This document shows positions 6,047 to 48,095 of a DNA stretch of 48,161 nucleotides, in pieces; position 1 is the first letter of the stretch; the number at the start of each line of letters is the position of its first letter. Under the pieces are notes generated by a model. It made no database searches, was not told the origin of the DNA, and saw nothing but the letters and a program-made list of their open reading frames with translations. Source of the DNA: an uncultured bacterium. GTDB taxonomy: Bacteria; Planctomycetota; Phycisphaerae; Phycisphaerales; SM1A02. A program made the position numbers and the translations under genes. The stretch spans positions 38,329-86,489 of the forward strand of contig CAITDI010000057.1 of assembly GCA_903891095.1 (NCBI GenBank), given 5' to 3'.

Positions 6047-6059
6047 CAGAAACTCCATT

Positions 6060-6204
6060 GCCCCTCAGGGGCGTCCGACAGGTTTGGGCAGTTGCCCGGT
6101 TCGACACCAACGCAGCTCGGATGACCACCCCTGTCGGCGGGTGGGTGCCTTCTGTGCATTGGATCCAATGAAAGCCAGCGCCTCCGCTTTCGCGGAGCCG
6201 CTGG
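6060..6204 (-). promoter_or_regulatory. Structured rpsK-rpoA spacer with three inverted repeats
   Basis: In the minus-strand RNA a hairpin with two 6-bp stems around a single G/G mismatch and a GAAA tetraloop (6175-6204) begins 12 nt after the rpsK stop. A perfect 14-bp palindrome, CATTGGATCCAATG, follows at 6157-6170. A 5-bp GCCCC/GGGGC hairpin (6060-6072) lies just upstream of the rpoA ribosome site. No U-run follows the large hairpin, so it is not an obvious intrinsic terminator; RNA processing or translational control is possible but unproven. Confidence 0.6.
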
Positions 6205-6215
6205 GGATGTGTGTA

Positions 6216-6614
6216 TTAGACGCGGCGCTTCTTCGGCGGACGGCATCCGTTGAACGGGATGGCCGTGTGGTCTTCGACCGCGGTGACGCGGAGACCGTTC
6301 GCCTGGAGAGCCGTGATCGCGCTCTCGCGACCCGGGCCCGGACCCTTCACGCGCACTTCGACCTCCTTGAGGCCGACGCGCTTCGCCTTGCCCACGGCCT
6401 TCTCCGAGGCGCGGCTGGCCGCGAACGGAGTCGACTTGCGGGCGCCCTTGAAACCGACCGTACCGGCCGAGTCCCAAGCGATGGTCTCGCCGTTCACATC
6501 GGTGATGGTGACGAGCGTGTTGTTGAAGGTCGCGTTGACATGCACGATTCCGCGCAGGACGTTCTTGCGAAGCTTCTTCTTCGGTGATGCTGATGCCGGG
6601 GTGGGCGTATTCAT
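6216..6614 (-). CDS. rpsK: 30S ribosomal protein S11
   Basis: A 132-residue S11, close to the family norm (~129). Conserved [18 protein letters not shown], the [18 protein letters not shown] stretch and the C-terminus [16 protein letters not shown] are all present. S11 forms the small-subunit platform and contacts S18 and 16S rRNA. It sits 89 nt after rpsM in the alpha operon. Confidence 0.97.
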
Positions 6615-6703
6615 TGGTGTATCTCGTGATCTGTCGGTTCAGGCGGCGACCATTCGCGTGCCAGCAATAGGAGAACGAGTCTCGCAATCGCTGAGCGCGT
6701 GAA

Positions 6704-7081
6704 TTAGCCCTTCACGCCCTTCTTGCCGGCGACGGTCTTCTTCTTGCCCTTGCGGGTACGCGAGTTCGAGCGCGTGCGCTGACCGTGCACGGGCAGGCTG
6801 CGACGATGGCGATCGCCGCGGTAGCTCTTGATGTCCTTCAGGCGCTGGATGTCCTGCTGGATCTGACGGCGGAGCGCACCTTCGACGACGATCTTCGCGT
6901 CGATGATGCCCGCGATCGCGGCGACTTCCTGTTCCTTGAGGTCGTTGGTACGACGCTCCGGGTCGATGCCGACCTCGCGGAGGATGTCGAGCGCAACCTT
7001 CGGCCCAATGCCGTAGACGTAACGCAGGGAGACGCCAATCTTCTTCTTCTCAGGAATGTCGATACCAGCGATACGCGGCAT
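6704..7081 (-). CDS. rpsM: 30S ribosomal protein S13
   Basis: A 125-residue S13 opening MPRIAGIDIPEKKKIGVSLR with the helix-two-turn-helix core and the basic tail around GQRTRSNSRTRKGKKK that reaches the P site. Length is normal. It is the first gene of the alpha operon here and follows a predicted promoter and leader hairpin (7190-7253). Confidence 0.97.
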   Translation of the reverse strand: MPRIAGIDIPEKKKIGVSLRYVYGIGPKVALDILREVGIDPERRTNDLKEQEVAAIAGIIDAKIVVEGALRRQIQQDIQRLKDIKSYRGDRHRRSLPVHGQRTRSNSRTRKGKKKTVAGKKGVKG

Positions 7082-11992: not shown

Positions 11993-12081
11993 GGTTTGCT
12001 GCCTTCTGTCTGGTGGGGTCGGGGGGACTTCGTGGCGCCTCGGGATCCGACGAGAACTTCGTCGGAGCCGCGATGCCTCAC

Positions 12082-16691: not shown

Positions 16692-17027
16692 TTAGGCTCC
16701 GCGCTCCTCGACGGCAATGTGAATGTGGCTGGTGCGCTTGCGAATCGGGTGCGCGCGGCCGCGGTCCTTGGGCTGGAAACGATCGAGGGTCGGACCCTCG
16801 TCGATACGGGACTCGCTCACGACGAGCTTGGTCGGATCGGCATTCTTCTCCTCAGCGTTGGCAATCGCGCTCTTGAGCACGACGGAGATGAAGGCAGATC
16901 CGCGCTTCTTCGAGAAGTCGAGCGCGGTGAGGGCCTCGTCGACGCGCTTGCCGCGGATCATGTCCGCGACGAGGCGCGCCTTGCGGGGCGCGATACGAGC
17001 AAATCGGTGGCTGGCCTGGTACGCCAT
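16692..17027 (-). CDS. rplV: 50S ribosomal protein L22
   Basis: A 111-residue L22: APRKARLVADMIRGKRVDEALTAL and the beta-hairpin end GRAHPIRKRTSHIHIAVEE, which reaches the exit tunnel near the macrolide site. Length is typical. Confidence 0.97.
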   Translation of the reverse strand: MAYQASHRFARIAPRKARLVADMIRGKRVDEALTALDFSKKRGSAFISVVLKSAIANAEEKNADPTKLVVSESRIDEGPTLDRFQPKDRGRAHPIRKRTSHIHIAVEERGA

Positions 17028-17062
17028 GGGTGGTTACCTCGTGAGGTCAGGACGCTCGCGCG

Positions 17063-17341
17063 TCAGACCTTGAGTTCTTCCTTCTTGTTGGTGTGGCCGC
17101 GGAACGTGCAGGTGTGAGAGAACTCGCCGAGCTTGTGGCCGACCATGTCCTCGGTGCAGTAGACGTCAACGAACTGACGGCCGTTGTGCACCTGGAAGGT
17201 GAAGCCGATGAACTCGGGGACGATCGTGCAGGCGCGCGCCCAGGTCTTGATGGGAGTGCGCTTGGTGCTCGCCTCTTGCTTCTGCACCTTGCGGTACAGG
17301 CTCTCGACGACGTATGGACCCTTCTTGAGCGAACGAGACAT
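17063..17341 (-). CDS. rpsS: 30S ribosomal protein S19
   Basis: A 92-residue S19: [19 protein letters not shown] and [20 protein letters not shown] are family hallmarks. It lies in the 30S head with S13. The 95-bp repeat unit ends immediately upstream of its ATG, so the duplicated DNA forms its ribosome-binding region, which has only a weak purine run (AGAGAA). Confidence 0.97.
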
Positions 17342-17344
17342 AGT

Positions 17345-17534
17345 GTGTTCTCTGCTGGTTCTCGCCGCACTTGCGGCGCTGGGTTCTAACTTCGTGTCCG
17401 AGGATCCGGCGGGTACTCCGCCGAATCCGGCTCAAACACGTGTTCTCTGCTGGTTCTCGCCGCACTTGCGGCGCTGGGTTCTGACTTCGTGTCTGGGGGT
17501 TCGGCGGGTACTCCGCCGAATCCGGCTCAAACAC
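17345..17534 (-). repeat. Tandem 95-bp duplication carrying two RNA hairpins, between rplB and rpsS
   Basis: Copy 1 (17345-17439) and copy 2 (17440-17534) differ at five positions, all transitions. Each copy encodes CGCCGC/GCGGCG with a 4-nt loop (17363-17378 and 17458-17473) and a longer stem of up to 11 bp (17402-17428 and 17497-17523). A further 7-bp hairpin lies at 17572-17590. The whole 256-nt spacer has no coding sign. It is the second-longest spacer inside the S10 cluster. Confidence 0.9.
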
Positions 17535-17597
17535 GTGGATCTGTCTGACTTTGCAATCTCACTCGGAGCCTCCGGACAGGTCTTGCCCGGACGCGAA

Positions 17598-18449
17598 TCA
17601 AAGCTTGAGCTGGCCGTAGCGCTTGCTGCGGCGACGACGGATGATGCGCGAGTCGCTGGACTTGCCGTAGCGACGCGTGCGTCCACCCTTGGCGAACGTA
17701 CCGGACGAGTTCGAAGGCTCGCGGCCGCCCTTGGACACCGAACCACCGCCGTGCGGGTGGGTGTGGTGGCTCATGGCGATACCACGGGTCGTCGGACGAC
17801 GGCCCTTCCAACGGTTACGACCGGCCTTGCCGAGCACGACGTTGGCATGATCGGCGTTGCCGACTTCACCGACGGTCGCGCGGCATTCCATCGACACCTG
17901 GCGGATTTCGCCCGACGGGAGGACGAGGGTGGCCCAGCGGCCTTCCTTGTTGGTGAGTCGAGCGTACATGCCCGCGCCACGGCAGAGACGGCCGCCGGCT
18001 CCGGCTTCCATCTCCACGTTGTGGAGCGGCATGCCGGTCGGGATGTGCTTGATCGGCATGCTGTTGCCGGGCTTCGGATCGACCTGATCCGGGGAGCTGA
18101 TGATGGTGTCGCCAGCCTTCAGGCCCTTGGGCGAGAGGATGTAGCGAAGCTCACCGTCGGCGTACTTGAGCAGCGCGATGTGCGAGCTGCGGTTGGGGTC
18201 GTACTCGATGCCCACGACCGTCGCAGCGATGCCGTCCTTGTTGCGACGGAAGTCGATCTTGCGGTAGCGGCGCTTGTGACCGCCGCCGCGGCCGAGGATC
18301 GTGATCTTGCCCTGCACGTTGCGGCCGGAACCACGGACGAGCGGCGCGAGGAGCGACTTCTCGGGGGTCTTCTTGGTGACCTCGGAATGGAGGTTCACCG
18401 ACGCGTTGCGGCGGCCGTTGGTGGTTCGCTTGTAGACTCGAATTGCCAT
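17598..18449 (-). CDS. rplB: 50S ribosomal protein L2
   Basis: A 283-residue L2 opening MAIRVYKRTTNGRRNASV with GRGGGHKRRYRKIDFRR and the C-terminal THPHGGG motif near the peptidyl-transferase centre. The residues just before HPHGGG (AMSHHT) differ from the common AMNPVD. Length matches the family (~275). It follows rplW by 18 nt. Confidence 0.97.
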   Translation of the reverse strand: MAIRVYKRTTNGRRNASVNLHSEVTKKTPEKSLLAPLVRGSGRNVQGKITILGRGGGHKRRYRKIDFRRNKDGIAATVVGIEYDPNRSSHIALLKYADGELRYILSPKGLKAGDTIISSPDQVDPKPGNSMPIKHIPTGMPLHNVEMEAGAGGRLCRGAGMYARLTNKEGRWATLVLPSGEIRQVSMECRATVGEVGNADHANVVLGKAGRNRWKGRRPTTRGIAMSHHTHPHGGGSVSKGGREPSNSSGTFAKGGRTRRYGKSSDSRIIRRRRSKRYGQLKL

Positions 18450-34303: not shown

Positions 34304-34327
34304 AGTCGTGATTTGAGCGGTCGTATC

Positions 34328-34461
34328 TGAGCGGTCGCAGCTGCGGCTGCTTCCTCTGGTGGGTGCGATCGCTGATTGCGGCGGCTTCCTCGTAGTTTGA
34401 GCGGTCGCAGCTGCGGCTGCTTCCTCGTGGTCTGAGCGGTCGCAGCTGCGGCTGCTTCCTC
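34328..34461. repeat. Three 29-bp hairpin repeats downstream of pfkA
   Basis: The unit TGAGCGGTCGCAGCTGCGGC followed by TGCTTCCTC is identical at 34328-34356, 34398-34426 and 34433-34461. Each contains GCAGC/GCTGC with a 4-nt loop. Copies 1 and 3 continue into the same TGGTGGGTGCGA. Spacers differ (41 and 6 bp), so it is not a CRISPR. The 248-nt spacer 34304-34551 otherwise holds only the next gene's -10-like element (34522-34529). Confidence 0.9.
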
Positions 34462-34551
34462 TGGTGGGTGCGACGCTACGTGGTGGTTCGCGTGCATGCG
34501 TGATGAGGGCGTGCGGTTTCCGCTAGGATTCGCGCCTTCCTCGGACGAAAG

Positions 34552-45749: not shown

Positions 45750-48095
45750 ATGCGTCGATTCCTTCTCGCCACGACTGTGCTTCTGCTCCCGGCCACCCTC
45801 GCGATGGCGGAGAGCAAGGGCAAGCCCAAGCCCCCCGTCGTCAGCGATGCGTTCCCGCTCATCGAGACCCCAGGCCATGCCCTGCACGGAGCCGCCTGGC
45901 AGAACTCGGAGAACCTCTCCCTGTCGGCGATGAACGGCATCGATGCGATTCCCGCGCCGGTGTTCATGGTTCCGCCGCAGGACAACGACTTCTACCTCGC
46001 TGAAGACGAAGTGGTCGGCAACGGCAGCGGTCCGAAGCCGCTGCGATTCGCCGTGCCGGTGCCAATCGCGCTCGACGTGGCGGATGGCGAGTGGATCAAC
46101 GTCGACGGCGGCCAGGTCTGGCGCCTCGTGATCGCCTCATCGAACGCGACCACCGCGCGACTCCACCTCACGGGACTCAATGTCCCGGCGGGTCAGGAAG
46201 TCCGCCTCTCGTCGCCGGGTTGGGAAGACACCACCATCGGCCCGATCGAGGGCGTCGGCGAGTTCGGCAACGGCGAGGCTTGGAGCATGTCGCTGCCGAC
46301 GAACGAAGTCCTGGTCGAATGGTTCGTGCCGCACGGCGCACGCATCAAGGCGCTGCCCTTCGCGGGCGTGGAGTACTACCACGGATACCGCCACATCTGG
46401 AAGTTCGATGCGCCGGGAGACGGCGGCGTCGCTGCGGCAGGCACCTGCCACCTCGATCCGATCTGCTTCCCCACGTGGGCGAACGAGTCGAACGGCACGG
46501 TCCGCCTGATCTTCAGCGGCTTCCTCTGCTCGGGCCAGCTGACCGCGACGACCGCCGCTGACGAGACCCCGTACGTCTCGACCGCGAACCACTGCATCTC
46601 GACGCAGGCCGACGCCAACGGCTGCCAGTTCAACTTCTTCTACCGACGCAACACGTGTGCGGCGACCGCGACGGCCTCGGCCGGCAGCAACGTCACCGGC
46701 AGCGATCTCGTCTCGACGTACCTCGCCAGCGACTGCACGCTGCTGATGGTCCGCCCGACGCTTCCCGCGACGGTGTTCTGGATCGGCTGGACCAACGCGA
46801 ACATCGCGGTGAACACCGCATCCACCGGCCTGCATCACCCCGCCGGCGACTACCAGCGCATCTCGTTCGGCGTCAAGAACGCCGCATCGTTCAACTGCGG
46901 CACGCCGGGCACGAACTGGTCTTCGCTGTCTTGGAATCCCGCCACGCAGTACGGCGTGACCACCACCGGCGTGACCGAGGGCGGCTCGTCGGGAAGCGCG
47001 ATCTACCGCACCAGCGACAAGCTGATGTACGGCGTCCTGACCTGCGGCGCCAGCGCGTGCAACAACACCGCCGGCGACGACGGCTACGGCCGCTGGGACA
47101 TTGCGGTCAACACGGGCGGCTTTGGCGCGCTGCTCGCGGCGGGCACCGACGACGCGCAGGAGCAGAACGACAGCTGCGCGACGGCGAAGGCCGTGGCTGC
47201 GGGCACCTCGCTGACCGGACTCATCGTCAAGCGCCTTGATGAGGACTGGTACTCGCTGACGGTTCCGGTGGGGTCGACGATGAGCCTGACCTCCACGTAC
47301 ACCAATGCCAACGGCGACGTCGACTTCGAGGTCTACTCGGGTTGCGGCACGACGCCGGTGCTCCAGCGCCTCACGAACGTCAACAACGAGTCGTTCACCT
47401 ACCTCAACGCCACGTCGTCGAACACGCTGCTGCTGCGCGTGTTCCTCGGCGCGGGTACGCGCAACACCTACTCGCTGCAGTACACCGTCGCCACGCCGCC
47501 GCCCACCAACGACGACTGCGTTTCGGCGACGCCCGTGATCGTCGGTACGTATGCGTTCGACACGACGGCCGCCACCAACAGCGCGCTCGCGATCGCCGCG
47601 AGCTGCACCGATGGCGCGGGCACGACCCTCAACAAGGACGTCTGGTACCGCTTCATTCCCGAGTGCGACGGCACGGCAACCGTCTCGACGTGCGGCACCG
47701 CGGCGTTCGATACGCGCATCGTGGTGTACACGAGTTCGTTCAACTGCCCGACGGTCGCCTCGAACGTCCTCGCCTGCAACGATGACGGCTCGGGCTGCTC
47801 GGCGCTGACCAGCACGGTTTCTTTCCCGTGCACCAGCATTGGCCAGTACTACGTGCGCATCGGCAGCAAGCTCAGCGTGGGCGGCGCCGGCACGGTCTCG
47901 ATGACCTGCACGCCGACCGCTCCGCCGTGCCCGGCCGACATCGACCACAGCGGCACTGTCGATGCGTCCGACCTCGCGACCCTGCTCAACGCCTGGGGCC
48001 CGTGCTCGGGCTGCGCGGCCGACATCGACGGCAACGGCACCGCCGATGCGTCTGACCTCGCGACCCTGCTCAACGCTTGGGGCGCCTGCCCGTAA
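45750..48095 (+). CDS. Secreted trypsin-like serine protease with C-terminal dockerin repeats
   Basis: 781 residues, GAGGAG 5 nt before the ATG. Signal peptide ~1-20 (MRRFLLATTVLLLPATLAMA). The protease domain has a His-Asp-Ser set in VSTANHC (~280), SDCTLLMV (~328) and TEGGSSGSAIY (~413), like lysyl endopeptidases. Two beta-sandwich regions (~475-580 and ~590-715) follow, then two dockerin-type calcium loops (DIDHSGTVDASDLATLLNAW and DIDGNGTADASDLATLLNAW, ~730-781). Such dockerins are common in Phycisphaerae without cellulosomes, so a sorting or anchoring role is possible. Confidence 0.9.
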   Translation: MRRFLLATTVLLLPATLAMAESKGKPKPPVVSDAFPLIETPGHALHGAAWQNSENLSLSAMNGIDAIPAPVFMVPPQDNDFYLAEDEVVGNGSGPKPLRFAVPVPIALDVADGEWINVDGGQVWRLVIASSNATTARLHLTGLNVPAGQEVRLSSPGWEDTTIGPIEGVGEFGNGEAWSMSLPTNEVLVEWFVPHGARIKALPFAGVEYYHGYRHIWKFDAPGDGGVAAAGTCHLDPICFPTWANESNGTVRLIFSGFLCSGQLTATTAADETPYVSTANHCISTQADANGCQFNFFYRRNTCAATATASAGSNVTGSDLVSTYLASDCTLLMVRPTLPATVFWIGWTNANIAVNTASTGLHHPAGDYQRISFGVKNAASFNCGTPGTNWSSLSWNPATQYGVTTTGVTEGGSSGSAIYRTSDKLMYGVLTCGASACNNTAGDDGYGRWDIAVNTGGFGALLAAGTDDAQEQNDSCATAKAVAAGTSLTGLIVKRLDEDWYSLTVPVGSTMSLTSTYTNANGDVDFEVYSGCGTTPVLQRLTNVNNESFTYLNATSSNTLLLRVFLGAGTRNTYSLQYTVATPPPTNDDCVSATPVIVGTYAFDTTAATNSALAIAASCTDGAGTTLNKDVWYRFIPECDGTATVSTCGTAAFDTRIVVYTSSFNCPTVASNVLACNDDGSGCSALTSTVSFPCTSIGQYYVRIGSKLSVGGAGTVSMTCTPTAPPCPADIDHSGTVDASDLATLLNAWGPCSGCAADIDGNGTADASDLATLLNAWGACP

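Follow-up and report, generated by a model that had tools for sequence, protein, structure and literature searches.

Why a structured element should be duplicated inside a ribosomal protein operon is the question raised by this locus. In the window (the whole stretch of DNA that was analysed, 48,161 nucleotides), the genes of the minus strand follow an S10/spc-type order; the RNA is therefore the reverse complement of the DNA shown. The two flanking genes were named from sequence. The upstream cistron is rplB (ribosomal protein L2; 17598-18449, minus strand), and the downstream cistron is rpsS (ribosomal protein S19; 17063-17341, minus strand). The spacer between them is 256 nt long and holds two head-to-tail copies of a 95-bp unit at 17345-17534. 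The rpsS-proximal copy 1 (17345-17439, minus strand) consists of hairpin A, hairpin B, and a segment of the rpsS leader; the rplB-proximal copy 2 (17440-17534, minus strand) is identical to it at 90/95 positions. The original prediction described an exact duplication between rplB and rpsS; the tandem arrangement and the location were confirmed, but the copies are not exact. Alignment of the copies agreed with its count of five differences, all of them transitions. These differences are confined to 19 of the 95 positions, a clustering with a probability of about 0.004 under random placement. The repeat ends have a CAC microhomology in common, and the copies join there.

The two RNA hairpins predicted for each copy were recovered by folding. 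Against 200 shuffles each, the copies gave z-scores of -5.1 and -5.2 with two hairpins per copy, and the RNA of the whole spacer gave -7.9. It had also been argued, from one favourable wobble change, that pairing was largely preserved between the copies. Two of the five differences do keep a pair (G.U versus A-U); two others replace an A-U pair by the mismatch A.C in copy 2, and the fifth falls in no stem. With two pairs kept and two broken, a comparison of the copies is by itself a weak argument for preserved pairing.

The 95-bp duplication was seen by eye in one of the 14 readable rplB-rpsS spacers among 16 genomes of the genus, namely in this genome only; the duplication is hence not the functional unit. 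When the same genome was searched at the DNA level with the 190-bp stretch, no second place was found at E <= 0.001, and the phage records gave no match. Tandem A-type hairpins were present in the same spacer of two relatives (two in G009 and three in G008), without the 95-bp duplication. The spacer, stop codon included, is 92-259 nt in the genus versus 14-91 nt in 15 fetched loci from other genera. The 95-bp repeat is best explained as a compound segment of the spacer that was duplicated in tandem at this place. It seems to represent one local copy-multiplying event, with the leader hairpin carried along. The duplication itself is minor; it matters as a pointer to the hairpin A family.

Hairpin B lies at 17363-17378 in copy 1 and, as found by folding, at 17458-17473 in copy 2 (both minus strand). 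The rpsS-proximal one has the form CGCCGC-AAGU-GCGGCG, followed by GAGAACC..GAGAACAC before the rpsS start codon. Across 15 genus genomes (14 distinct rows), 86.9% of its cells are paired and 4/6 pairs have two-sided changes, compared with means of 80.1% and 1.1 pairs in shuffled controls. A control structure slid by +3 also had 4 pairs with two-sided changes, but only 59.2% of its cells were paired. Hairpin B occurs in the minimum-energy folds of 11/15 genus genomes, and the folds of G002, G003, G011, and G012 differ there. As judged from these alignments, hairpin B is a predicted rpsS leader element separate from hairpin A, with its own covariation.

In the repeat unit, hairpin A has an outer stem, a GCC bulge, an 11-bp stem, and the loop AGUAC. 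The window contains four A-type members, all on the minus strand. Hairpin A of copy 1 (17402-17428) has the complete 11-bp stem and that of copy 2 (17497-17523) has 10/11 pairs; both have the loop AGUAC and match the covariance model, which was built with them. A third member (17568-17594; 10/11 pairs, loop AGACC) starts 3 nt past the rplB stop, and is a weak match (E 7e-4) to a model that was likewise built with it. The fourth (12043-12069; 10/11 pairs, loop AGUUC) is located in the rplF-rplR spacer, 12 nt past the rplF stop. The two repeat-borne copies lie farther from the rplB stop, at 74 and 169 nt, and the third member (17568-17594) is the sole stop-proximal one in that spacer.

In a motif scan, further fetched loci showed the hairpin A architecture built from other stem sequences. 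The family has 11 pairs, a loop that is mostly A-G-N-A-C, and one to five tandem copies; neighbouring copies are spaced by 36-43 nt in 28/42 cases. The covariation check on related spacers suggested with the original prediction gave a positive answer, since hairpins A and B both covary across the genus. For hairpin A, 59 distinct members have two-sided changes in 10/11 pairs (shuffled mean 6.0, slid structures 3-8) and in 92 cells (shuffled 24, slid 8-27). The proportion of paired cells is 94.8% versus 78.2% in shuffled and at most 48.4% in slid structures, a percentage raised by the choice of members mostly having at least 9/11 pairs. The loop is AGNAC in 75/81 members, with U (33), G (18), C (15), or A (9) as the third base. 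The first scan required loops of the form [AG]G[ACT]AC, and the listing of 81 members, which includes six chance-like ones, required [AG]G..C; the constancy of loop positions 1, 2, and 5 is therefore partly chosen. Position 4 was free in that listing and is A in 77/81. Six chance- or coding-like members (L069, L087, one of L064, L052, L078, and L082) were dropped before the broader model was built and the stem lengths were counted. Among the 67 good members, the stem is longer than 11 pairs in six, while about 25 would be expected at 6/16 under independence.

The arrays lie behind the stops of eleven genes: iscS, rpsK, rpsC, a Glu/Leu-type dehydrogenase, tuf, rplF, rplB, pdhB, rpsJ, groEL, and a prepilin-like gene. 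Pfam matches back iscS (Aminotran_5, with NifU_N downstream), rpsK (with rpoA downstream), the dehydrogenase, tuf, rplF, the prepilin-like gene (N-methylation motif), and pdhB-pdhC (Transketolase_C then 2-oxoacid_dh); groEL-groES, rpsC, and rplB were named from sequence. Genes of these families are generally highly expressed. This gene list bears on the proposal that the element is a binding site for a ribosomal protein, or an autoregulatory site of the S10 operon. Its place inside that operon and the five ribosomal protein genes among the eleven sites are in keeping with such a site. The same hairpin, however, follows the unrelated tuf, groEL, iscS, pdhB, dehydrogenase, and prepilin-like genes, which makes this role, put forward in the original prediction, extremely improbable. 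The search for known Rfam families, ribosomal protein leaders included, gave no match at the gathering score in the window; the two matches at E <= 10 in 17000-17900 were far below the thresholds.

The position behind the stop is narrow. The first stem starts 3-14 nt past the stop in 35/41 arrays at the eleven gene sites, with distances measured from known C-termini. This count covers the model-found arrays that lie behind identifiable genes and passed the strict scan; L063 (rplF) and L264 (pdhB) failed that scan. A convergent-gene site in four genomes (L078, L082, L256, L260), seven weak places in or beside genes or unclear (L069, L087, L085, L052, L254, L261, L263), and the related iscS hairpins of G008 and G010 were left out. 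The six misses are at 20, 24, 29, 32, 74, and 112 nt; the one at 112 nt follows masked bases, and in the first four an apparent truncated copy was seen by eye nearer the stop. The position was also compared among loops in 764.5 kb (364.5 kb from this genome, 320 kb from G013, and 80 kb from G003; home-made gene calls), a sample picked to include known sites, which therefore measures position given the loop and not density. Hairpins starting within 15 nt of a stop numbered 9/31 with [AG]GNNC loops, 2/244 with other loops, and 0/28 with reverse-complement loops (Fisher 4e-8 for [AG]GNNC versus other loops). Within 300 nt past a stop, 20 loops were in the sense orientation versus one reverse complement. 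The places found only by the broader model form a held-out, weaker set (n = 12 in the genus). Seven of them are in spacers that follow a stop on the same strand, four of these within 15 nt; two more are at the convergent-gene site, and three are inside or beside genes.

Such proximity has a counterpart in E. coli: REPs no more than 15 nt from a stop reportedly stall ribosomes (PMC12306157). A termination brake is accordingly a main rival, in which the stem would be opened by the terminating ribosome, slowing termination, limiting re-initiation, and tuning the output of the upstream gene. The 3-14 nt distance of the first stem would suit it, whereas further copies of the arrays, about 40-170 nt from the stop, are outside the reach of the ribosome, and a brake would presumably be costly on heavily translated genes. 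We consider it unlikely as the main role. Partial transcription terminators or attenuators inside operons were considered as well, and strong GC-rich hairpins between cistrons might be read in that way. The U-tract of an intrinsic terminator is absent: a five-U run occurs in the 8 nt after 0/81 members (one has four U), and no terminator-like site was found in the rplB-rpsS spacer. This role is very unlikely. Several arrays at operon ends were seen by eye to precede an ordinary terminator-like hairpin.

Two sites show rearrangements of their own. In the convergent-gene region (L078 1339-1560, and L256), units of about 90 bp recur, each comprising an AGNAC-type hairpin and the end of a reading frame on the minus strand. 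At pdhB-pdhC (L253 1977-2087, contig C88 of this genome), the start region of pdhC occurs twice, with a hairpin (from 2003) between the copies; the pdhC start and the hairpin region look as if they were duplicated together.

Among the genomes searched, the family is restricted to this one genus of Planctomycetota. A first covariance model (R1) matched 14/16 genus genomes at E <= 0.01, G007 and G010 weakly. A broader model (R2, 59 distinct members) matched 13/16 at E <= 0.02, with E-values down to 5e-10 and no match at that threshold in G001, G010, and G015. Both models were built from these genus genomes, so that matches at the training sites are built in. Outside the genus, single weak matches were found in 4/78 genomes with R1 and in 5/39 with R2 (E 4e-4 to 0.013); the best of them, the only one inspected, falls in a gene call. 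Stricter filters were applied in the searches outside the genus than within it, and G000 (this genome) and G004 retained nearly all of their matches under them.

The iscS-iscU spacer was readable in 14/16 genomes. Ten of these have one to five copies of the hairpin, G008 and G010 have a degraded or related hairpin, and it is absent in G001 and G015. Most genomes have a GCGCG..CGCGC-type hairpin directly before iscU (by eye). The assembly of this genome breaks within the array, where contig C83 starts and C98 ends. In a short tree of rplB and rpsS, G005 and G004 lie closest to the root; both have the iscS hairpin, which is therefore probably ancestral to the genus. Sites other than iscS are patchy across the genus. 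The hairpins seem to be inherited in place, with copies multiplying locally.

This distribution may be set against that of REP-like DNA repeats without a host function, namely palindromes spread by a Y1 transposase, expanded by slippage, and kept in spacers because genes would not tolerate them. Hairpin A is palindromic, tandem, and mostly intergenic, and Y1_Tnp (PF01797) matches occur in 13/16 genus genomes. REPs, including the GTAG/CGTC type of E. coli and other bacteria, are likewise reported to be intergenic or in the 3' UTR, beside gene 3' ends (PMC3733652) and often close behind stops. GTAG/CGTC-tagged REPs are, however, usually reported at more than 100 per genome (PMC2817692), whereas R2 matches number 0-15 per genome at E <= 0.02 (16 genomes; up to 150 candidates scored per genome). 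In the flanks (6 nt before, 8 nt after), GTAG or its complement occurs in 0/81 members and CGTC or its complement in 4/81. The near-fixed loop with a free third base, the mostly mRNA-sense orientation, and the orthologous sites common to several species also distinguish hairpin A from these REPs. Spread by a RAYT was rejected despite the presence of transposases. In this genome, no Y1 gene flanked by the same palindrome was seen: of the two Y1_Tnp genes, one has a different palindrome on its flanks, and neither of their contigs (C117 and C38) has an R2 match. G012 and G013 have 13 and 6 matches, yet no Y1_Tnp was found in either (genomes 84% and 96% complete). A functionless REP-like origin is possible but rather unlikely.

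The different palindrome is an observation in its own right. On contig C117 (L188 6413-7205; Y1_Tnp at 6565-6897), both flanks of the gene carry GC[A/G]GTGCC[A/T]GGCACTGC, which recurs on C117 and on C20 (L193). This gene and its own palindrome are perhaps the real RAYT-REP system of the genome.

The reading that we prefer, at about even confidence, is that the A hairpins are a genus-specific, cis-acting family behind the stops of core, mostly operon-internal genes, which would mark and protect the ends of cistrons. The genes would be transcribed as a single RNA, and this polycistronic mRNA would be cut within the spacer. This would leave the stop-proximal A hairpins as the 3' end of the upstream cistron, where they would block 3'-to-5' exonucleases, and tandem copies might provide a stronger barrier. 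The leader hairpin (hairpin B before rpsS, the GCGCG..CGCGC-type before iscU) would form the 5' end of the downstream message. The suggestion that the structured element might take part in RNA processing gains indirect support from the genus-wide covariation of both hairpins and the recurrence of the A type at cistron ends.

Intergenic stem-loops at the 3' ends of highly transcribed genes are reported for selective RNA processing and stabilization (PMC4423207, PMC10311766). The 35/41 arrays within 15 nt of a stop likewise place a stem-loop just 3' of an operon cistron. A recurrent layout was observed at rplB-rpsS and iscS-iscU: upstream stop, AGNAC hairpins, linker, leader hairpin, and downstream start. 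Messages that are cleaved between cistrons and preserved through structures at their ends would be expected to have this layout; such messages are reported for the Clostridium (Ruminiclostridium) cellulolyticum cip-cel operon. In that operon, too, the stem-loops are intergenic and at the 3' ends of highly transcribed genes, often for subunits of a protein complex. The accounts cited do not describe them as one sequence family, whereas the hairpins described here make up a single family, with an 11-bp stem and a near-fixed loop, across many operons; processing is reported there and proposed here. In E. coli iscRSUA, a structure downstream of iscR is reported after RyhB binding (PMC3896431). It too lies between cistrons and shields the upstream gene within an isc operon, which is the role proposed here; the gene pair is different, and an sRNA takes part in the E. 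coli case. The hairpin A family, as intercistronic and REP-positioned hairpins, is a variant not previously described in the literature searched; no published description was found in the titles and abstracts of open-licence literature.

Several observations count against the end-marking role: the patchy sites, the hairpins at the convergent-gene site, which are antisense to the nearer gene in all four genomes, and the stop-distant copies in the window. A plain exonuclease barrier, moreover, does not require a near-fixed loop and an 11-pair stem. Both features point to a specific reader. The genus might have an RNA-binding protein or an RNase dedicated to the 11-bp AGNAC hairpin (one helical turn, near-fixed loop with a free third base), which it would recognize as a common cistron-end tag across the ribosomal, EF-Tu, GroEL, Fe-S, and PDH operons, with the tandem copy number setting the relative dose of neighbouring cistrons. 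This extension is speculative, and we regard it as possible at best. If true, it would amount to a genus-wide RNA code for operon stoichiometry. Cistron-end marking would provide a sequence-defined, countable tag in the core operons of a poorly studied phylum. The natural variation in copy number, from 0 to 5 at iscS-iscU, makes an effect of hairpin dose on operon stoichiometry testable.

Two further observations concern the window. In the rpsK-rpoA spacer (6059-6215), an unrelated strong hairpin, CCAGCGGCUCCGC-GAAA-GCGGAGGCGCUGG, was seen by eye 11 nt past the stop; relatives have AGNAC hairpins where this genome has the GAAA-loop hairpin. Two more tandem repeats are present at 34321-34473 and 47928-48083, with periods of 35/70 and 84, respectively.
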